Shown in pieces: positions 16,401 through 41,037 of a stretch of 64,000 nt of DNA. Positions within the stretch are counted from its first letter, which is position 1. The number at the start of each line of letters is the position of its first letter. This stretch comes from Cloeon dipterum (Eukaryota > Arthropoda > Insecta > Ephemeroptera > Baetidae): contig NC_088786.1 of NCBI RefSeq assembly GCF_949628265.1, positions 26,123,681 through 26,187,680 on the forward strand. Reading direction: 5' to 3'. The notes below the pieces were generated by a model that saw nothing but the letters and a program-made list of their open reading frames with translations, searched no databases and was not told the DNA's origin. The position numbers and the translations under genes are program-made.

Positions 16401-17948
16401 CTTAAAAGCGAGCGGCGAACGACCGGCCAACCACCATTTTTTCGACTACTCGTCCGAATTAGCGCCAATTAGGAGAACGGGCGTCGAGCGGGATTAATTT
16501 GCATGCGTGCCGCAATGAATGCAAAATGCGAACCGGCCTCGACTCCAAAGTGGACAGTTTACTAGAAAATTCCAAAGACCACTTGCCTCTGTAAATCTAA
16601 AAAAATATTAACATGAATTTAAAATGTAAATAACATTGTTTAAGCCAGTATTAGTCAGTTTTGGTTATGTGTTGCGTAACAAGTGATGTATGCTTTAATT
16701 TAAAAATCCTATCACTTTTTAATTGGTGTCAAACAACACACATGACATTAGTTAAAATAACTTTTGACATGAGATATTTAAGTCCAACAGTTTCTCAATT
16801 GTAATAAAGTGAAGAAAGAAATGGGCTCTGGCCTAATGTGTTGCCCTTGAAAAATAGTACACGGGTTTCTATTGCCATTTTTATTAGGCATTATTCCTAA
16901 AAAAATCCTCTAAATAGTGTTGATCAAAAATCAATTTTGAAAGAAAATAACCTAGACTCTAATTAAACATTCATGAAAAATCTAGCCCTCCCCCCTCCAT
17001 ATGATACAAATATTAATTTTATTAGTAATAAAAATCGTTGGACAGTTAATTTCAGGAAGCTCTTTTCTTTGTCCTTAAGCAATATTTGCAGTGAAACAAA
17101 AGGGTAAATATTGAAGCAATTATGAAATGAAAAAGTAACTAGCAGGTTCCCGTACAGGATGGCCATTGTTTCGGCCCTTCAGGCCTCTCATTATTTGCCA
17201 CATTAATCTCTCACCCAGGCAATTTGTGTTTTTATTTGTCATTGAAAACAATTGACCGCCCTTGTTGCTCAGCACATCTAAAAACGAAACAAGTATGTAG
17301 TGACAAAATCTTGTGAAACCCCCGATCGCTTCAACTTCCAAGTCACATGATCCTTCTTGTTTATCAAAGAATGGAATTTCCTGTTTTCAAATTACATTTT
17401 CGAATAGGAACATACTTGACGATCATTTCTTAGTCTGCTACGTGTAAATTTATTGATTTACGTCTTTAAACATTGAAATCTGATCATCGAATTCTCGTTC
17501 TGCCCTCAGGATGGATCATGGCGGTTACTTGGCGTCAAGCTGCAGCGGCAGCACATCGAGCGGTGCCTCGTCGCCGGTGAGCAGCCACTACGGGGCCAGC
17601 ATGTCGCCGGCCAACACTCTGCACGGCCATATCCGCATCAAGGAGGAGCCGCTGTCTCTGAGTGGCAACACGCCACCCATGTCGCCCATCGACATGGACA
17701 ACCAAGTGCACCTGAAGTTGGAGCGAAAGCGGCAGCGCAACCGCATCGCCGCCTCCAAGTGCCGCAAGAGGAAGCTGGAGCGCATCACCAAGCTCCAGGT
17801 CAAGGTGGACCATCTCAAGGGCGAGAACTCGGAGCTCAGCATCGTCATCAACAGGCTGAAGGAGCACGTCTGCAAGCTCAAGGAGCAGGTGATGGAGCAT
17901 GTCAAGAGCGGCTGCCAGATCTCGCCGGTCGCCTCGCTCAACTTCTGA
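13492..17948 (+). CDS. Jra: Transcription factor Jun (Jra, c-Jun orthologue)
   Basis: Two exons (13492-14000 and 17510-17948) join in phase to 315 residues. The N-terminal half has a JNK docking site ([11 protein letters not shown] at 42-52, matching ILKQSMTLNLA of c-Jun). Proline-directed phosphosites follow: S70-P in VLSSPDLK (c-Jun S63), T80-P in LATPELE (c-Jun S73), and T97/T99 in TTPTP (c-Jun T91/T93). The second exon carries the bZIP: basic region [20 protein letters not shown], then a leucine zipper ([16 protein letters not shown], continuing with leucines every seven residues). Jun pairs with Fos/Kayak on AP-1 sites in the nucleus under JNK control. The 3509-base intron separates the activation domain from the DNA-binding domain; vertebrate JUN has no intron. 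A MITE sits 162 bases past the stop. Confidence 0.98.
14001..17509 (+). other. 3.5 kb Jra intron with a GC-rich, CpG-rich core
   Basis: The outer parts are AT-rich, but about 14950-16550 is clearly richer in GC and CpG than the surroundings, with GCGCGC words, four tandem CGGA units near 15890 and CGTCGTCGCCGCC near 16270. Open frames of up to 210 codons occur there, but they show no family motif and overlap on both strands, as expected of GC-rich DNA with few stop codons. An intronic enhancer or CpG-island-like element is the most sensible guess. Confidence 0.4.
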
Positions 17949-18109
17949 CTGCCGCCCCCGACCCCCGCCAAAGTGGTCACCGCGATGCTAGTTTTCCTTT
18001 AGTTTGTTTCCTGGGATCGAGGAACAACTTTTCGCCAGACAGTGCGGCGAGCAGTATTTTTATTCCTGACACCGCCTGACTCGAACCACACGCCCCTCTG
18101 ACAAGTGGG

Positions 18110-21299: not shown

Positions 21300-24200
21300 T
21301 CAGGCGTTGTGCTCGTGCATCAGTTCGTTCATGCGAGCGTTGACTGTGTTGTCCACGACCTCGAGGCTCTGGTAGTCGAGCTCTTTCAGCAGGCACAGTA
21401 CGGCCGACAAAATGTTGGAGGTCTGCAAAATTACGCAAAACTTCAATTATGTCGTATAAGATTAGTCAAAGAAAAATATATTATTTGGCTTGGTTAAATG
21501 GTTTTAAGAGCTAGGGAGTTTTTGTCGCAAGGGAATTGCGGTATTATCAAGACTTTGTTCCTCGTTTCTGTCTTTATGTGCTCAGAGATGAGTACAATCG
21601 CAATTGGTCGTTTTCAACTATGTTCTCTGCAGCTATTACTGTGGTATTTATTTTGTTTAGGAGGTAAAGTACTGCAGATGAGCAAGAGCGTGTGATATTA
21701 TAATTTCTTTCGCAATTCGTTCAATTTTTGAGCCACCCATTCCTTGCTTGTTCACCTATGGCAGTAGCCATTGCAAAATCTACTCCGCATAAATATATAA
21801 GAAAACGGAAAGTTTCCCCTTGGACCGCCCTGGAAATCCCAGGAAAAAAATCTGCCATAAGAAATGTTGAGAGAGTTGTAATAAAAAATTGTGAGCGCAC
21901 CCTTGATTTTGGTCTGCCGTTGCCCGTGATAGGCACAGAGGGTGGATGCTGCTGGATGCTACTGGGGTGATGAAATCGGTGTCGTGGCTGCTGCTGGGAC
22001 CGGTAGTAATACTCTTCGTCCTTAAAGAGAGCTTTCGATTAATAATAGAATGAAATTATTTTAAACTACACTAGCACTCGATTGCATATACAGATACGCA
22101 GTGAATTCTGAGAATTGCTTTAGCAATATAAATAGACGCACGTTTTTAATTATAGGAGTGTAGCGATCAAAGGAAGCAATACTCTCTCTAACTCGTTACA
22201 GAGCAACAGATAAATTAGATAAAACGACATGCGGCAAAACAAGCAAAACCTGTTTGCCTTATGAATCTTAATTAAATTACTTGCAATTTATAAAAGCAGG
22301 AAATCGTGTCCTGCATGAGAGACCTGTCGCGCTATGTTTATCTCTCAGTGTCAAATTGATTATTTTTTTTCTAAATAATAGGTATAACACAAAACGTTGG
22401 GAATTAAATTATATTGCAACAAAATTTGAAATAAAGATTGGCGTTTCGTAAACTTTTTCTTCGCAAAAAGTAAAAATGAAATGGAAAAGACTCATTACGT
22501 GAAAATACCAGAGATAACAGGAACATTTTGGAACTGCACAATTGCACAACAGCGACATTGTGTTATTCTTTTAAAATAAATTTTCAATGCATCTTTTAAG
22601 ATTCGTTCAAAAATCAAAAGTAATGTTGAATTATTGCAACTAAAAATATTTCAATCAGGTATTTTTATCCACTTCAATAAAAATTGGGAACTAATGTCCT
22701 TTAGACTTAGATTTTAACTCATAAAGACAGTGATAATTACTTTCAAAACTATATATAAGCGAAAGTAAACAAGAGGAAGGAGAATTCAGAATGATTGAAC
22801 ATAAATATTTTCTTTGTGATGTCGGTGATATTGATATTTCCAGCTCTGTGTACTCGTAAGGCCAATTAAGCAAGCCAAGGAAAGAATGAAAAATTACAAA
22901 CTTGTTTGTCACTACATACCTAAAAACTTCAAATGTTTTTTAAAGTAAGAGGAATTCAACAACAACCAGACCATTGCTTTGCGTGCACGTTGCAATGTGT
23001 GAATCCAAGCCATGTTTGGGGTAGAGTGCAGACTGATTTGCGCCTACGTTTGATTCCCTTGCATTGTAATGACGTCTCCATTCAGATTTGGGAGGGTTAC
23101 GAAAAGCTACTTGCTGGTTTTCACATTTCCAGTAACCGTGAATTAATTTCGCGGGACAATTGTCTAGCGTTTCAATATAAAGACCCCAGTGCGGGCGCAG
23201 TAACGCGAGCTCATCCTTTTCTGGACTGGGCTTCCTCCAATGAGGCCCATGCGCCCATGTTATTGGGATACGGAGTTTTCACGAGTTATTCGCTATCAGG
23301 TCACTATAGCCCATCTCGAAATAGACTAACCAAAAAATTGTCCTCAAGAATAAATAACAATGCGAAAGTAGTCGAATTTACTTTATACAAACAAATTAAA
23401 TATTACTGTCCAATATTTTAAAATTCACCATTTGCGAAAGCCCTTCGTGTTTGAAGCAACCAATAAATGGCGCCAGCTGTTACTTTCGATTTTAAGGCAT
23501 TTCAGTGTCAATTATGTCACTATTCATTCTACACAAGAAATTATAACGACACAAAAGTCGTCATTACTCAAAATCTAATAAACTAACAAACTCCGGACTC
23601 AAATTAGCTCAACTCTCAGTTCGTGGAAAATTCGACCTTTAAAATGAAGTTAAAGTGTTGCTGGTGTGTACGGATAAATTAAACATTAAACAATTAAATT
23701 GTAGAATAGTTATTATTAAATAGAATATTGATAATGTAACGAGATAATGGTAATTTGATAATAATTGTGATATAGAACAATTTGGGGTTTACAATAATTG
23801 GGGAATAGGCCTTTCAATAAAAAAAAATATTCGGAATCGGAAGATACGGAAAATACGCGCGCACACGAGTCTGATATTGTACTTAACGTTTGACGATCTA
23901 TACGATGGGTGAAGAAGGAGTCGATAACGGCGCCGACGACGACGAACGGTGACGCTCCAACCGAGGACGTCTCCCGTGCCGTAGTCGCGCAAGGTGAAGG
24001 GAGCTGCTACACACGAAGGGTCCAGGCAAGGTGTTGTTTGCCGACCGCTTCAGGATGGGGAGGTGCCAGCCTAAACGTCTAAAACGGACCACCAAAAGAC
24101 GGGGCTGCGCCAGGGGTAACGAAGGAGCCCACCAGGGCTACCTGAGGGAAACAACGCACAAAGTCTACCGTCAGTCGCGCCAAATTAAAATAAAAATGAG

Positions 24201-27200
24201 CACACAGAGTGTTGCTCAATTTATAAGTCGCCCAGAAATATGTTTTGAATAAGTTTTTTAAACTTACTTCACTCGTGACCGAGCTTCTGTTAAATCCGTC
24301 CTGCCTACGGACGAAACATTTGCCGAGACCTTCTGTCGAAACCATCAAGAAGGTCGGCGGACAAAGGTTATTGGGCGACTGACTGACTTTCGTGCGAGAG
24401 GTCGCAACCTTTCCCCTCGTGGTAGACCTATTTCGCGCGCAGCTCAGGTGTGGGAGTCTTCTCCTTCTTGTTGCACTCTGCACGCACTGTTTTACACTCG
24501 TTGTACGCGCGGCGCGATTTATTAAAAAAAAAAATATAGGGACAGGGGATATGGGAATCACAATCATTATTTAATTTACCACATATCGTTATACTCCCCT
24601 CCCCGAAAGAATAATTTTTCAGAAGGAAAAATTATTGTCTTTGGCCTGCGTGTTTTAAGTCCTTCACATGAAATTCCCCAAAACTAACAGAATGATTAGA
24701 TGGATCAACTAACTTGAAAATATTATCTGCCACTTGTCTTTGAAGCAAATACGGACCAACAAAATATGGCAAAAGTTTGGCAGTAATTCCAGCACCCTTC
24801 TTTGATAGGGCGTAATTCTTTTTCATTACTAAATCTCCTATTTTGAAATCAGAAGGACGACGACGCAAGTCGTAATGGCGTTTATTTTTCTGGCTAGCTT
24901 CAAACATTTTAACCTTAACCAATTCATGAATTTTCTTTAACTTGGGAAATCTAGCTGCGTAATTTTCAATTAAATTAGGCGCTGAAAAATCACACTCTTT
25001 AATTGCTACTGAGCCATCAAAGGTTGGCTGTCGCGCCATAAAAAGGAAATAAGGCGAATATCGCGTTGTTTCATGAACTGCAGAATTAATAGCAAACGCA
25101 ATTTGAGGCAAGTTGCGGCACCATTCCTTCTGGTTATCGCTTATGTAACAACGTAAAATCGTCTCAAACACTCTATTCGTGCGCTCCGACGGATTTGCCG
25201 CGGGATGATAACGAGGAGTGTACTGTAACCTAGCATTGTATTTTCTAGCCATATCTTTAAATGTTGAGCTGTGATATATTTTAGCATTATCTTGTACTAA
25301 TAATTCTGGTGCACCATATTGCTGAATAGCTGACTCAATAGCGTTACAAACTGATTTCGCTGTGGCGTCTTTCAAAGGGAACAGCATGACAAATTTGGTG
25401 AAAAAATCTACTAAAGACAAAACATAAGTAAAACCTTTAAGGCACGAACGGTGATTTCTTTCAATGCGTTGAAAACAAAAATTCAGTCGGATAATTCCCG
25501 CTAGAATAAATAAGAATAACAAATAAAAGAATCGCAAACACTAATTTAAAAAAAATCTTTGCTGACGTGTCTACAGCGAATGGCTAGACCAATTTATCAA
25601 AAGAAAAATTGTTAATTGTAGTATTGAGACTAAAATCGCAACAGAAGTGCCTTAAAATTAAAGGTTACAGCTAAAGACATCAATTGACGCTTCAAACACT
25701 ACAGACTCTCGCAACCGGTGAATTAAAACACCTAAAACATAATTTATCATCGATTGAAAAAAAAAACATCTGTCTAGAAAACACGACAGTGAGGATAAAA
25801 TGCGATTTTCCAGCAATCTTGTAGCAACATTGACAAACTCTAATTCAAGTCTATATATTGTGATGAAACTTAAATTAAATCTGAAGAGTAAGCACAGTAA
25901 AAAGAAAACGTGCAAGCAATCCAAGAAAATGAGTGAGAAGCTTCACGTGCAATCAGGTCGATGGGTGCTTCAAAGACTGCAACACGAGTTACTCACTTGG
26001 TGGTTGCACGGATACAGGGGCAGCTGCTCAGGGTAAACTCTGGGCTCGCTTTCGGACCGAAACCTCGGGCCGTGCTCAGACGGCGAGCAGGTGGTAGAGT
26101 TAGGCGTGTTCTGGGACAGCATTGGGGGCGAAGAGGGCGACGGCGGAAGGTATGGCGCGGCCTCAGGGGACGCCTCCTTCTGCCGTCGCTGGGGGGTCAT
26201 AAGGGGGTCGGGGCTGTTGGGGGTGGGTGGCTGCACGGAAAGCACAAGGTTAGTCTTGCCAGTTAGTTGCGATAGCTGATAATGTATATGGTTAAACACT
26301 TTTCTATTCAACTAAAAATAAAAATATTCTAAAGAATTTAAAGCTCTAGAAGAATATTTTCCGCATTAATTGATGAATCCCGTCACCACAAATTATGTTA
26401 ATGGTTCGTGTGTGAAAATTATTTTAACTATAATAGCATCTCACCTGGTAAGTTTGCTGTTGATAAGACTGCCCAGTAGAATGGTATGATTGAGTGCTGT
26501 CACGTCTGTGGCTGTAGCTATGTGTCAATAATTATTTCATAGTGGGCAACAGGTATTAAAACATACCCAGTGTGGTTCTCCGAGTTGTTGTAGTTTGCGT
26601 TTCGGCGATCGGCATACTCATCGTGATATTGGCGGGGCGGCTCAGGAGACTCCATTTCAGGCGGCGTTTGGTCTGGAGACATCTGCAATTCACCCAAATT
26701 ATTACGACCATCAAGAAACATAATTGCATTTTGTTCTAATTCAATCAATAAGGAAAACTTCCTTAAATTTAATAAAATGACTAAAATAATGAAAAAAATA
26801 TTAACAGATGTCTTCCGGATTTCTCTACTTGAATTTTTAAAACGTTGCCACATTTTTAGGCACAATTTACACACCCTTAATCTGTTAAAAAGTTGTATAA
26901 TTTAAACTAAAAATTGATAAAAAAAATACATAGTATAAATTGTAAACTGCACAATTTAAATTTAAATTTCCAATTCCTGGTCCTACAAGCAAATGGAAAA
27001 TTCCCAGTTCCACCTTGGGAAATTTTCTCAATTGTTTTTAAAATCATTCTTAATGGATCAGGCATCATTCCATCAGGTCCCGTGCGAATTGGAATATTTG
27101 AGTTCGAAATGAACATAATTTTTTGCATAAAACAAAAAGCAAAAAATTTAGCAGCTATAAAGCGAAGATTTAAAAACTAGTCACACGTTAAAACATATAA

Positions 27201-30200
27201 ATCAGTATTTTACGATAAATTACAAATCACAGAGGGTTGCTAAGTGATTTTAAAACAGAAATAAGCATCCAAAAAACATTGATGAGGCTCTAGCTCTGCA
27301 TTCCAGCTGAAAGCAGCCTAGAACAATAACCAGAAGCGTGCGTATGTCTGTGACGAAAAAATCGGGGGATTGAAAAGCAAAGCCAAAGAAGCACCAAAGG
27401 GAAGAACATGCAGCAGCAGAGAGGACAGCCCCAAGTACCTTGCAAGCTTTGCCCTTGGCGTCACACCATTGCACAGCCTTGGAACTACTGCGAATGAGGC
27501 GCGCCTTGCTGTGCGGCTCGCATGCAGTAGTGGTAGGCACCAGAGTAACCCCGTAAGTGAACGACGAGGCTTTGTTGTTAAGACGCACCTTGTGGGCCAC
27601 CAGCACCTCATTGCTTACTTCAGGTGAAGACTGCCTGCCGTTGGGTTCGACGCCAGCCTCCTCGATAGACTCGTCCCATGTTGGCTCGTCACTCTGCAAC
27701 GCGACCACCACAAACACAGGCTCAACCGTGCACCCTTAGTTACGGGCTTGGATGGAGTGTGTTAGATCTACTGCTTTACGATGGGTTCATGACATGGTTT
27801 AGGGTTAAATGAATTTTTGAGTTTGGAGTCAAGACCTGCTTTGCTATGCAGACACATTTGTAAAGGACATTCTCAAGACTTAGAGGAAGTACAATGTGTG
27901 AATTGCAGAACAGTTGTTGAATGTCTACTAATGAGATGTATAAAAAAAATTGGATAAGTTCTAAATAGCGCGTTCCTCAAACCCTTTATAATTTAATATT
28001 TGAATTTTTGCAATATGAAATAATCCAAAAATTTATCACCAAAGTTGAGGGAACGTGTTCATTGGGATTTAAAGGTACCCATTTCATAAAATTGTTTTTC
28101 GACACTCCACTTTTAAGAATATTTGATTCAACCTTTGAAAATCAATTTTCAAAAATTGAATACCAAATAAACAGTTGAGGTTAATATTTTGGTTGAAATA
28201 CAAATCAACAAAAACGACACAATCAAACAAAATGAAGACAGATACTCAACAAAGGTGAGACAAGTGAATGTAGCATTCTGACGTGTGATGGCTACCTCAT
28301 ACTTGACGCCGTTCGAATAGCCATTGTGATCTGGCGGTGAATAGCCAGAATACTGGCAATCTTCATCCTCTGGATGCAGCAAATCAACACCCTGCCGAAC
28401 GGCAGTTCTGCGCTCCTCGTCCGTAACCTCCAAATCATCCAGTTTCTGCAGTCTTGGAAGCGCCCTGATCACAGACAGGCGATAGCTGGAAAAGGTAAAA
28501 ACTCAGTCATGATTGAATTTCTTAGATGAAAAATTACCCCTCTGCGTTGGTGCAAGGGTTTTCAGAGAGGGTGAGATTTTGCAGGTTGGCACAATCTTGC
28601 AGGTAGCACACTTCGTTGAGTTTCGAAATCAAATTCTTGCGTAAGTACAGTTCTCGCAACTTGCTGCAGCATCGGAAGTCCCCAAGTGAGCTGATTTTGT
28701 TGACACTGCAATAAAAATAAAATTTAGAACAAATCGTGAGGATTTTTCTCAAGGATCTTAAAAAAGGATGGTCTGTTTATGCACAGAATTTCACTCTCAT
28801 TCTCCGTTTCCCGCGATCATGATAAGAGGTTTAGATTTCTTCCTCATATAAAACGCTGAGCAAAAGCGTGAAATTGAGTTCCATTCAAAGACCAGCCGAT
28901 CACTTTTCCCCGCGTTTCCTGTCGTGCGAAAGGAAAGTTGATATACACGCGAGTACCTCAGCGTCGGCTGCCAGGTTTTAAGTGAAGCGAGGTGTAAATC
29001 ACGAATCGGCGCAGAAACGACCAGAGTCGACCGCACTTGGGCCTTGGTGCGAGAGCAAAAAATGGCTGATATGCCCATAAAAGTGGCAGCAAGCGAGCAA
29101 ACTCGTCTGTGTCTTGACGACCAGAATTTCCGATGTAAAAAACATCGTCGTGTGTATCTTACGGCGATAAATTTGCGCGGAAAGACAGGAGGCGAAATTC
29201 TCTCTCCACGCTTACACAGTGTGTTCTCAAATATTTGCTCATGACTAAACGGAGTCAACAGAATAAATCGTGAATAAAAAAAATGAGTGGTCGTGCGGCC
29301 GTGCGCTGTTTGCATGAGATTACGCGGGGAATTTAGTGTGTTGTGACGCTTTCATGCGAAAAACGAACAATTCGGGTAACTCATCGTTGATGTAATTCTC
29401 GTTTCATTTCAAATTATAAAATATAAAAGAGGCAGCGCATTGAGTAATGATGTTATTTTTTATTTGTTTCCAGTGTTTACTGGAGTATGAAATGAGGTAG
29501 ATTCCCGCCTCTTTGTCACGAGCCAGAAGCAAGCAAACGTGACTTTATCGTAAGTTTAAATGTTCATCAACAATTGCTGAGGATAATTAGAAGTAATTAG
29601 GTAATTAGAACAAATGCATGGACTGTTCACATTGCAATGCTAATTTACGAGGAACTGCACGGCCCATAAATTGAAATTTGCTTCTCATAATTTTTGTCGG
29701 ATTTTCACGGTGTGGAGCGAGTATCAATAGCATCATCGAGCAATTTCAGGTCATTACGGCCAAGAAATAATTGCAAATTGCAGCGGGAGCGAGATAAAAT
29801 TAAGCAAGCGCTCGGTTTGAAATTATAGGCGGACGCGTAGACGCAAGCCGAGCTCAAGCAGCGTGGAGGACTGGAAAATAAGATATGGCAATAAAACGCG
29901 CCATGAGAGTTGCCGCCGCAAAAAGGGTAGACACGCTGCTGCCGCTACTGGAAAAGGAGTTTATTGTGCTTTTGAGAACTGACTCGTTTGGCGCAGTGAA
30001 TTTCGCTCTGCCGCTGCAGTGCTCCTCTATAAAAGGCACCACTCGAGCGAGTTCTCGTTTTCCCGCAACTCCAGTAATTCCAAATTTACACGAGCGAAAA
30101 ATCGGAAATTATTGCGACGCGCAAAGAGCGGATTTGTTGAAGCGGAACAAAGTGTGCCGGACGATGCATCCAAAACGAAATATCTTACAACACACCAGTT

Positions 30201-36200: not shown

Positions 36201-38270
36201 CATTGATCCATATTGCAAACTGTATCATCCGAGGGTTTGTTATTGGTGAAGTTAACCTAGCATAAAAAACAAAGCCACGGTAAAAAATCGCAAACAGTAT
36301 TGAAAGTTGCTGCTGTTGGCACTTAATGGAACCTTTGCCTTTTGACTCTCTCGCTTTAATTTTAGCCAAGCTTGGCACCGCTTGTTTTGTGGTCGATGGG
36401 AATGCGGAGAAGAGTAATTATCTGTGTGAATGGTGCGACGTGTTTTCCTAACCTTACATGGTGACCCCTGTCCCGCGCCCAGTGGGAGAGCAAGCAAAAT
36501 AGTATTTACCTCAAAGCCAAAACCTCCACGTTTGGCATCCGCTGCAGCAAGCTCACGTCAGTCAGTTCATTTCCCCTGAAATAAAAAAAACATAATAAGC
36601 ACTTACACTTGCGATTAGCATTTTTGGCAAGTTCCTATAAACATAATTTCAAGATTTGAGCACATCTTGTGCATTGAAGTTAAATAATTTTTCAAAAGCA
36701 TTGGTAAAATATTTATTATTTTGATTGTTCACTCCTATCTCTGTTTACTAGGTCATAGCAAAATGTGACACACTGTCAAACATAAATATTGAGTAAGGGC
36801 TACAATTGTCACAAAGCTATTGCCAAATAATAAATCAGACGGAAATCGTTGCGATGCGCCATGCGCCAGTTAATCAGTAATAACTCAACAAACGAAAATA
36901 ACACGGAATTCATAATTAAAGAAAATATAATCAGTGAGAGTAGTTATTTTCTTTGTTCGTTGATGGTTTTTACATTACTCAAACTAATGAAACAAAAGAG
37001 CTCAATTAGTAAGAACAGTGCGGAGAGTGAGAAAAGACCTGATTTCTCACGCCGAATTCCGCGTGAAAACCTTTTTCACCTAATGTAACTTGCTTAAGTA
37101 CACATTCTCATTTGCGCGCTTCTCTTTTTTAATGATGCAACCACTTCTCACAGAAAGGTAGCAACCAAAGTGCTCCTTGAAAAGGCAGTTCTAATTCACT
37201 GCTCAGAAATCGATTCACTCAGCACGTGTTTTACTGTTATACTTGTTTAGAGATTTGCGCCAAATAATTAAAGGAAGATTAATGCAAGGCATCCTTATAA
37301 AACGGATAAAGCGTTTCAGGTTTGCCCATTTCCGTTACATCAATCATTCCAAGAAAGGAAAACTAGCTCTCATCTAGCGCACCGTTACTCGCGGAGCAAA
37401 TCAATTTATCTAAATCCGACTTGGCCGAATTATCGTCTGAGCGACTATAATTTAGAGACTGTACGGAAGCAAGTAGAGCAGGGACAGAAAAATGAATTAC
37501 TATAAAAAATTATGTGTTGAAACTAGAAAAAATCCCGTGATTTCTTATGAAATCAGCAAGTCTAAAAGTATTCCCCTCGCTAGGCTGATAAATATTTTTG
37601 CAAGTGTTTGACACTTTTGGGGATTCTATGCTGACAGTATGGTGACACGCTCTCTATTCTACGCCAAAGAGGAAGTAGTGTGAAGTGCTTTGTATTGATT
37701 CCCGTGCTCCATGCGATTGCTCAAGTGGCAATTTGTGTCCGCAAAAAGACAAAGTGCAAACTCTGTTCTGCATGCGGAAAGCTCACAGACTAGATGTCAG
37801 GTGCACACTGCACGAGCAACAGTTTAATTGTTGCCTGCAAGCAGAGCGGAGACGGAGAAGAAGAAAAGTGTCAATTGCGTATTAAACGCAGCTGCGTCAA
37901 GTTACAATAGTGCATGACATGTGTGTCTAGTCGATCGACGTTGCACTCATTGACCAAGAAAACACAAAAGATATAGATTGATTACAGATTACAAATAATT
38001 GTGAATTAAAACTGGGAAATAAATTGAAAGAGTAGAACAATAAAGCACAATAGATGAAATAAATTATGCTAATGCTATTAAGTAGATTAGATGAGTCTGC
38101 AATTTAAGGCAATTGAGTGGGCAGTGAGCTTTCCGCATCCGCAGGTTTCCTTCGTACGTCTGTCTGTTCTGTAGCGATCGGGACACTCACCAGCAATTGA
38201 GCTTTTTGATGCTGTTCAGGTCAGAGGACTTGGCCCGCGCTATGATCATCGGTTCAGTCAACTTTGCCAT
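21300..38270 (-). CDS. CFAP410: CFAP410 (C21orf2)-like leucine-rich repeat ciliary protein
   Basis: Ten exons join in phase: 38191-38270, 36510-36575, 28538-28705, 28296-28485, 27439-27693, 26567-26682, 26445-26517, 25997-26230, 21901-22020, 21300-21422, giving 474 residues. Residues 1-140 are the leucine-rich repeats and cap: KKLNCWGNELTDVSLL, LRELYLRKNLISKL, LTLSENPC, then RALPRLQKLDDLEVTDEE, matching human RTLPRLQKLDNQAVTEEE. The last 40 residues (ILSAVLCLLKELDYQSLEVV onward) match the C-terminal oligomerising helix of the family. Between them lies a long Pro/Ser/Gln/His-rich linker that makes the protein almost twice the 256 residues of the human form. The family acts at the basal body with NEK1. 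Exon 27439-27693 (85 residues) is in phase on both sides and could be a cassette. An alternative first exon lies upstream. Confidence 0.9.
23540..25540 (-). mobile_element. Degraded Ty3/gypsy LTR retrotransposon, 3' part only
   Basis: Minus-strand coding from about 25480 to the stop at 24632 encodes the integrase core and C-terminal part. The triad is visible: D in SLVDFFTKF, D in LVQDNAKIY, E in NPSERTNR, with about 35 residues between the last two. A GPY-type end follows (YFVGPYLLQRQ). The N-terminal zinc domain, gag, protease, reverse transcriptase and RNase H are missing, so the copy is 5'-truncated. A purine tract (CGGGGAGGGGAG at 24594-24605, minus strand) follows the stop, and the roughly 1 kb beyond it should be the 3' LTR. 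The left limit near 23540 is a guess from a short inverted TATAACG word. The element lies inside the 4 kb CFAP410 intron (22021-25996) on the same strand as the gene. Confidence 0.75.
28706..36509 (-). other. 7.8 kb CFAP410 intron
   Basis: It separates the second and third coding exons. Several GC-richer blocks (about 28860-29340, 29820-30240, 30540-31100, 31640-32100, 32640-33400 and 35090-35520) alternate with AT-rich sequence. No coding exon, RNA gene or full mobile element was recognised. A TATAAAAG word sits at 30028-30035 (+). The alternating pattern is compatible with regulatory elements, which is speculation. Confidence 0.45.
30028..30035 (+). promoter_or_regulatory. TATAAAAG box inside the CFAP410 intron, antisense to the gene
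   Basis: A perfect TATA consensus is preceded by a GC-richer stretch. No coding exon downstream on the + strand could be recognised. It may drive a non-coding transcript or be chance. Confidence 0.25.
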
Positions 38271-38539
38271 TTTGACGAGTCCGAATTGAGTTCTCTCAGA
38301 CCGAAAAACGAAAAAGCGGAGTCACATGAAAGTGCCCGACGGACAGGTCTTTGACAGCAACACCTGGTTCGCGGGCGCACCGACACCGACTGACGGAGAA
38401 ATCAGCGTCCAAGGAAAATACCAGCGAGTTAGTTGGGAGGCGCAGAGCAAGAGGCGCACTGAGCGGTGCGCACTTCTTTCTGGTGCGGAACGAAACGCGA
38501 TGCAAAATTGACAGCGCCTTATAGACCTTTTGAACTTAC

Positions 38540-38619
38540 ACCATATTGAGCTGAGTGACGTTTTCGAGGCAATCCTGTTTAGCGTATTGGCAAACAATGT
38601 ACTCCTTTAATTTGCTCAT
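38540..38619 (-). CDS. CFAP410: Alternative first coding exon of CFAP410
   Basis: From the ATG at 38619 to a strong GTAAGT donor at 38539 this exon has 80 bases, exactly the length of the proximal first exon (38191-38270), and it also ends in phase 2. It encodes MSKLKEYIVCQYAKQDCLEN and then VTQLNMV, 27 residues. The proximal exon encodes MAKLTEPMIIARAKSSDLNS and then IKKLNCW. The two align without gaps: both start M-x-K-L, both have A-K at 13-14, and both end in an LN-x pair that leads into the first leucine-rich repeat. Spliced to the exon at 36510-36575 it keeps the frame. An internal exon duplication with separate promoters is the best explanation; the alternative that it belongs to an unrelated gene is unlikely given length, phase and similarity. 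Confidence 0.75.
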
Positions 38620-39374
38620 ATCGGCAGTTTGTTTCGGAGAATCACTCAAAAGTGTGTGCCTGTTTCTCACGACAAGTCTGCCAGAACTAATATGGAATTT
38701 AAAAATTCTATCAACAAAAATGCCAAGCATTTCAACAATTTTATTATAAATAAAATTTGAATTGTTGTTCAAGAATTTGTCTTGGTGCCATAAAAACTGC
38801 TTTACCAAACACCTAAATTTTCATTGTCAAATTGATCGTTGCCCTTTTTTTTTGAAGCAGTGAAGTTTTAGTTTGTATGCGCAATTTTTACGACACCACG
38901 ACGAATTACGGAATTAAATATTTTACTAAAATATCCTGAATTAAAATATAGCAAATAAAAATTACTATGATATATTTTCTGCATTAACGTACAACAGTAA
39001 TTTTCACTTCATTTAATTTCTCCAATAACAGCTCAAAATACGTTTTTCGAATTTGTAACTCAAAAAATAATCTTAAATAATTATTACTTTTGTAAATATT
39101 TTCACATTAGTTGAACTTTGATTGTATTTGTGTACCTGTTAAAAACAATATTTGTTTTCTGTCTAAACCATGAGCGCCTTGAAGTATTGCTTAATTATTG
39201 CAAATGTCTATCAGCAAATCAGATAGGGACGTATGGGAAATTTTTTGAGCACTGGAAATTCCAGTTATAAATGGAATAATCCTTAAAAATTTACATAATC
39301 TTATCGATTTCGGCACGTTTAACATTACAAAATCTCGAGATAAAACTGCTCACTTTTGATTTTCAACTGGTGAA
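38620..39374. other. Intergenic region between CFAP410 and the carboxypeptidase gene (divergent)
   Basis: AT-rich sequence without recognisable coding content. It should contain the promoter of the distal CFAP410 first exon and that of the carboxypeptidase. A TATA-like box could not be fixed for either. Confidence 0.45.
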
Positions 39375-41037
39375 ATGAAGTTGATTGTATTAATTTTGGC
39401 GACTGCATTTGCAGTTTCTGCCTATAAATCATACCATGGGTAAGCAAAATTTGTTAAATTTAACAATCTTTCAATGAGAAAAAAATCCTGCCAGGTACCA
39501 AGTTCTTACCTCAAGAGTTGTCATGGCAGCTGATCTTGAGGGGCTGCACCATCTGGAAAGAGATTCCCGTTTCATTTTCTGGGCAAGGCCTGCAGTCGGC
39601 CGACCTTTGATGGTGATGACTTCTCCAGAGGCTGTTGAGAGCTTGTGGCAACAGCTGGATCTCATGGCTTTGGAACCATCTGTACACATTGAAAACGTTG
39701 GATTGTGAGCATTAATAATTTCATTTTATCACAATTTAATTTCAAATTTTTAGGATTGTAGAACGAGAGTTTCAACAACGACAGGAGTTTAAAAACTTCC
39801 CTTTAAATAGAGAGGTGTCTTTTGAGCGGTATATGACACTTCAGGAAGTATGAGCGTCATACGTTTTTAATTCTGCAAAAATAAGTTGATTCTTCTTCAA
39901 GATTATCGACTACACAGAGGAAGTGGTCCAGAATAACCCCTCAATTTCAAGCTTGATAGACTTGGGAACAACCTACGAGGGCAATCCATTGAGGGCAGTT
40001 AAAGTTAGCAACGGTCCAGGAAAAAGAGGAATCTTTCTTGATGCAGGAATTCACGCAAGAGAGCACATCACTCCTCCTGTGGCACTCAAACTGATTTATG
40101 AGCTTATTGAAAATTACGCTCAGAATCAAGCTTATGTTGACCTCTTTGACTGGTACATTTTGCCATCAGCAAATCCTGACGGTTACAACTACACCTTTAA
40201 TGAGGTTGGATCTTGTTAAAAACATATCAATTTTTACTAACTGAAACAACAGGACCGATTTTGGAGGAAAAATAGAAATCCCAATGAAGGCTTTGACTGT
40301 GTGGGAACTGATCCAAACAGGAACTTTAATATCAGCTGGGGAAGTAAGAATTTAAAACACTCTTTTGGCCTATTTTTTACAATCAAAACAAAACGAATAA
40401 GTTGACGGGGATGCTGACCCATGCAATGAAGGCTATCGAGGAATTGCAGCATTTTCAGAGGCTGAAAGCTCAGCGATTGGGACTGCTGTTAGAAACATTG
40501 AGGAAAATGGAGGACTGGCGCTCTACATGTCAACGCACTGCTTTGGAACAGTAAATTCATTTCAAAATATATTAGGGAAATTAATAACAATTTTTAGTTC
40601 TTGATATATCCATGGGGTTTTACATATGAGTTTCCCCAAACTTTTGATGAGTTGGTAAGTAATTCCAGAATTAATTTTAATAACTAAAAGAGCATATATA
40701 TTTAGACCAAAGCAGCGAATTTGACAGCTGCGGCCATTGAGGCTGTGTATGGCAGAAGATACATAATAGGCACTAGTGCCAATGTGTATTGTAAGAACAG
40801 GAAAATATTTCACAGGCAAGTTTTAAACCTTTCTGTATAAATTTAGTCCCCGCAGTTGGCGCCAGTATGGATTATGCATATGCGATTGGGAGTAACAATA
40901 CCTATTCCTACACATGGGAGCTGCCTGCAGGCGGAGAGTTTGGATTTGAGCCACCCCCAGAGGACATCCTGCCGATTGTTCAGGAAATTTGGGAAGGAGT
41001 TAAGGCTCTTGCAACCTACATCAGCACTAAAGCTTAA
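39375..41037 (+). CDS. Secreted zinc carboxypeptidase, M14A family (digestive type)
   Basis: Nine exons (39375-39439, 39495-39704, 39754-39847, 39902-40204, 40253-40343, 40402-40550, 40598-40654, 40706-40790, 40847-41037) give 414 residues, a normal length for a pre-pro carboxypeptidase. A signal peptide (MKLIVLILATAFAVSA) is followed by a propeptide to about residue 105. Zinc ligands are H174 and E177 (GIHAREH) and H300 (STHCFG). Substrate carboxylate is bound by N246-R247 (DPNRNF), and the general base is E376 (YTWELPAGG). The residue aligned with CPA Ile255 is a methionine (ASMDYAY), which suggests an A-type preference for hydrophobic C-terminal residues rather than basic ones; this is inference from the alignment. 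All catalytic residues are present. Its 3' end abuts RTCA. Confidence 0.95.

Follow-up and report, generated by a model that had tools for sequence, protein, structure and literature searches.

A probable pair of alternative first coding exons in the CFAP410 gene of the mayfly Cloeon dipterum

Alternative first exons that arose by tandem duplication have been described in UGT1A and in Drosophila hydra, the latter being placed, where the source treats it, under untranslated-region duplications (PMC9013439). The locus reported here would share with both systems an arrangement of homologous first exons in tandem, one per transcript, followed by common downstream exons. In UGT1A each first exon is driven by a promoter of its own and gives a distinct N-terminus (PMC9013439). 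The present locus differs from them in comprising two exons with 269 bases between them and in encoding a ciliary leucine-rich protein. In Dscam and Mhc, too, exons are duplicated in tandem and each transcript uses one copy, but these are mutually exclusive internal exons that need a splicing choice, which is not the case for first exons behind promoters of their own. Tandem alternative first exons are already known as a kind, exemplified by UGT1A, of which CFAP410 would be a new case.

CFAP410, a protein located at the base of cilia, and NEK1 are both linked to human ciliopathies and to the risk of ALS. The protein, also named C21orf2, is described from human, Trypanosoma brucei and Chlamydomonas reinhardtii as an N-terminal leucine-rich domain and a C-terminal helical domain, both matched here (PMC11865075). 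An earlier sequence-only reading of the mayfly DNA supposed that CFAP410 genes have one N-terminus; this fails as a rule, since eleven human isoforms with varying N-terminal regions or linkers are reported (PMC11865075). T. brucei possesses a whole-gene paralogue of CFAP410, and the same paper mentions no duplicated first coding exon in its abstract, section 3.1 or Discussion (PMC11865075). Among the titles and beginnings of abstracts listed by literature searches, none concerned a duplicated CFAP410 first exon, and CFAP410 together with insects gave one paper, a review on Parkinsonism.

We analyzed a window of 64 kb (the whole stretch of DNA, to which all positions refer unless stated otherwise), whose relevant features are collected in Table 1. 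We consider it quite probable that this CFAP410 gene has two alternative first exons, each with a promoter of its own, and that the distal form has an altered grip on its partners. An old duplication of exon 1 would have produced two alternative first coding exons, each lying behind its own presumed promoter and spliced onto the common exon 2. Both would encode the N-terminal capping helix and the first strand of the leucine-rich domain, while the remainder of the protein, including its oligomerizing C-terminus, would be common to both forms.

Table 1. Features of the mayfly CFAP410 gene, with positions in the 64-kb window.
Feature	Position	Strand	Remarks
Distal alternative first coding exon (1a)	38540..38619	-	80 nt, phase 2, donor GTAAGT
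Proximal first coding exon (1b), orthodox CFAP410 N-terminus	38191..38270	-	80 nt, phase 2, donor GTGAGT
Spacer, presumed 1b promoter and 5' leader	38271..38539	-	TATAAG at 38523, TCAGTC at 38393, G+C 0.53; predicted
Presumed 1a promoter region	38620..38919	-	A+T-rich, G+C 0.33; predicted
Exon 2, common to both forms	36510..36575	-	66 nt
Exon 3, common, leucine-rich repeats	28538..28705	-	
Exon 4, common, end of leucine-rich domain	28296..28485	-	3' end picked by eye
Last coding exon, CFAP410 C-terminal helical domain and stop	21300..21422	-	

The identity of the gene was established from solved structures. The best match of the leucine-rich part is 8axj_A for the proximal form (E 5.3e-30) as well as for the distal form (E 1.1e-29). 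This entry carries no molecule name, and we take it to be the N-terminal domain of T. brucei CFAP410, of which a 160-residue construct is described in PMC11865075. The last coding exon matches 8axr_A, the C-terminal domain of human CFAP410 (E 7.3e-05). Since the gene thus holds both the N-terminal leucine-rich domain of CFAP410 type and the C-terminal helical oligomerization domain, it is, judged by these matches, CFAP410. Pfam leucine-rich models match both forms, some favoring one and some the other, and are less telling. Further exons between 28296 and 21422 were recognized by eye.

The two first exons, on the minus strand, are of equal length and phase, both begin with ATG and their starts lie 349 bases apart, as previously read. 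The distal exon encodes MSKLKEYIVCQYAKQDCLENVTQLNM(V) and the proximal one MAKLTEPMIIARAKSSDLNSIKKLNC(W), and the 27-residue peptides align gap-free with 9 identities and a BLOSUM62 sum of 36. Computed joins confirmed that exon 2 accepts either first exon in frame, and either of them followed by exons 2 to 4 gives an open frame of 168 residues. Both donors were called good in the earlier reading, to be corrected in that the distal exon ends in T instead of G at position -1. The distal form would retain residues that hold the fold, with V in place of W; the description of the proximal CW as conserved is not borne out, T. brucei having VC there. We regard the proximal exon as the orthodox one because it is closer to the human N-terminus (16/26 identities against 10/26 for the distal exon).

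The resemblance of the two peptides was evaluated against a background of 264 kb, consisting of the window and 20 stretches of 10 kb picked arbitrarily from this genome. This set contains 2,186 ATGs followed by 26 open codons, of which 128 have GT at +80; GTAAG or GTGAG at +80 reduces them to five candidates, two of which are the distal/proximal pair. When the 26 residues after Met were scored and the proximal self-match was left out, the distal peptide ranked as the best match to the proximal one among the 2,186 candidates (score 31, next 19). Against the N-terminus of T. brucei CFAP410, the proximal and distal peptides scored 41 and 40, respectively, and the next of the 2,186 candidates 15. 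Shuffles of the distal peptide that kept its composition reached the real score in none of 200,000 cases against the proximal peptide and in one of 200,000 against T. brucei. Chimeras were likewise compared with T. brucei CFAP410: exons 2 to 4 alone gave 90.4 bits, which rose to 104.9 bits with the proximal exon and 103.6 bits with the distal one, as against a mean of 91.0 bits (sd 0.86, maximum 94.2) with 126 control peptides having GT at +80. The rank among 2,186 candidates and the chimera controls rule out chance resemblance, and by these measures the distal exon and the CFAP410 first exon are homologous.

This homology is found at the protein level. Exon DNA is alike at 35/80 positions, a value attained by 14 of 20,000 in-register shuffles, and a gapped local DNA alignment of the exons is not significant (50/500 shuffles as good). 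Codon positions 1 and 2 are alike at 13/27 and 14/27 (431 and 78 of 20,000 shuffles as high, respectively) and third positions at 8/26, with 6.9 expected by chance; the contrast of positions 1 and 2 over position 3 is weak when taken alone (Fisher p 0.08). The DNA flanking both exons displays no similarity (189/500 and 92/500 shuffles as similar). Because the flanks are dissimilar as DNA and third positions are at chance level, a recent duplication is ruled out, and we read the distal exon as an old copy whose protein sequence has apparently been conserved.

The regions preceding the two exons differ. The 269-base spacer in front of the proximal exon contains a TATA-like and an initiator-like motif (Table 1), and the 300 bases upstream of the distal exon contain neither a TATA nor a TCAGT-type initiator. 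The two regions differ in base composition as well; a separate promoter is presumed for each first exon, as is transcription of the distal exon. An RFX X-box at 38797-38784, with one mismatch and ending 164 bases upstream of the distal ATG, was considered as a sign of ciliary control; the site is weak because 15 one-mismatch matches occur across both strands of the 64-kb window. The distal frame remains open for 67 codons further upstream (38620-38820, minus strand) and includes another in-frame ATG, so the distal exon may extend 5' or have an upstream acceptor. A divergent zinc carboxypeptidase gene lies at about 39372-41037 on the plus strand (limits set by eye), with a Peptidase_M14 match at 39890-40219 (E 8.4e-33); the ATGs of the two genes being about 0.75 kb apart, the distal promoter would sit near this gene.

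Other explanations of the distal exon were weighed against an alternative first exon in use. It could be a decaying, unused relic of the duplication, in which frame and donor have survived by luck, as its divergence, the nonconsensus base at position -1 and the absence of a core promoter motif in front of it might suggest. Third positions are, however, at chance level, yet the peptide fits T. brucei CFAP410 like the proximal one does. In a simulation of neutral decay that started at the present proximal exon, kept the ATG and ran to the observed DNA identity, 26,237 of 100,000 runs stayed open, 12 reached the protein score and 8 did both, while none attained the T. brucei score of the distal exon; we hence judge a relic improbable. 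If the distal form is nevertheless unused, it would be the relic of a common event. The exon might instead be a chance open frame beside a donor site, or an upstream reading frame of 27 codons unrelated to CFAP410, which agrees with the TAA stop that the unspliced distal frame meets right after the exon, two codons into the intron side; such an origin is refuted by the peptide rank and the chimera controls, leaving this explanation with a negligible probability.

The distal exon could also begin a separate, diverged CFAP410 copy, or belong to another gene, and never join exon 2 at 36575. A genome search with the full distal form gave 35 matches, four of which correspond to the query itself (the distal first exon and exons 2, 3 and 4) and 31 are stretches elsewhere, 23-41% identical; exons 2, 3 and 4 are each found at one genomic place. 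Within the 64-kb window, 147 exon-2-shaped frames were scored, the real one reaching 101 and the next 5, and none of them falls inside the spacer between the first exons. With no near copy of exons 2 to 4 in the genome and no copy of exon 2 in the window, a whole-gene duplication with interleaved exons was rejected. A copy of exons 2 to 4 lying outside the window that had diverged as far as exon 1 could go undetected, since genome searches miss the other first exon: with E up to 10, each 27-mer retrieves itself only, and the proximal exon is not among the matches of the full distal form. We nonetheless hold a separate copy to be highly improbable, and the duplication of exon 1 proposed in the sequence-only reading fits, the distal exon being homologous and exons 2 to 4 having no detected second copy.

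Serial use, in which the distal exon would be spliced to an acceptor immediately upstream of the proximal ATG to give a longer N-terminus with two caps, is very unlikely. A join at 38292 would preserve the reading frame and leave it open across the proximal exon, and the tract preceding it is 73% pyrimidine. This is the sole such AG among the 12 of the spacer and would make a GAG acceptor, a disfavored kind, and the distal peptide fits directly before exon 2. Because the spacer offers only this poor acceptor, a transcript started at the distal promoter would be expected to leave out the proximal exon and to continue with exon 2. With alternative first exons, each having its own promoter and the same exon 2, one first exon per transcript would follow; the earlier description of the exons as mutually exclusive would hold in this sense, through two promoters and the want of a good proximal acceptor, and not as a splicing switch.

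The consequences of the exchange were considered in light of the human complex. In an AlphaFold model, Lys13, Arg21, Lys22, Arg29, Arg70 and Lys120 of C21ORF2 form salt bridges and Asn24 a hydrogen bond with NEK1, and a K13E+R21E+K22E protein binds NEK1 poorly (PMC10185812). Exchanging exon 1 covers four of these modelled contacts, where the residues are K, K, K, N in the proximal form, K, T, Q, N in the distal form and K, R, K, N in T. brucei. The distal form thus keeps the lysine and the asparagine (2/4 contacts in exon 1) and lacks the adjacent basic pair, which is T-Q in the distal form, K-K in the proximal form and R-K in human and T. brucei. The equivalent of Arg29 is E and lies within the common exon 2. 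Residues were matched by alignment to the human sequence, which makes mayfly numbering one higher than human; the residues named in PMC10185812 agree with that human sequence.

A NEK1-like kinase is encoded in the genome (L031, G000:C3:30026676-30027490), and its first 153 residues score 107 bits against human NEK1, 94 against an EGFR-labelled entry and 83 against NEK7. This kinase is diverged, being 37-41% identical to human NEK1. Two more NEK-like kinases (L035 and L036) are present in the genome.

By analogy with the human complex, we propose that the distal form is a CFAP410 with altered kinase binding, whose grip on NEK1-type partners would change and probably weaken. A partner switch is a more tentative and rather unlikely extension: the distal form, devoid of the basic pair, might join the same complexes through the common oligomer-forming C-terminus and lower the recruitment of the kinase, or redirect it, at a single type of basal body, such as that of sperm as opposed to sensory cilia. 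Should both forms be made, a natural pair whose sole difference lies in the capping helix and the first strand would allow the NEK1-contact residues to be tested in the intact animal.

Elsewhere in the window, an open frame of 302 codons that contains an integrase core (rve, E 9.6e-11) lies between CFAP410 exons at 24632-25540 on the minus strand and is presumably a piece of a retroelement within an intron. A putative Jun-like bZIP coding region was recognized by eye at 17500-18000 on the plus strand.
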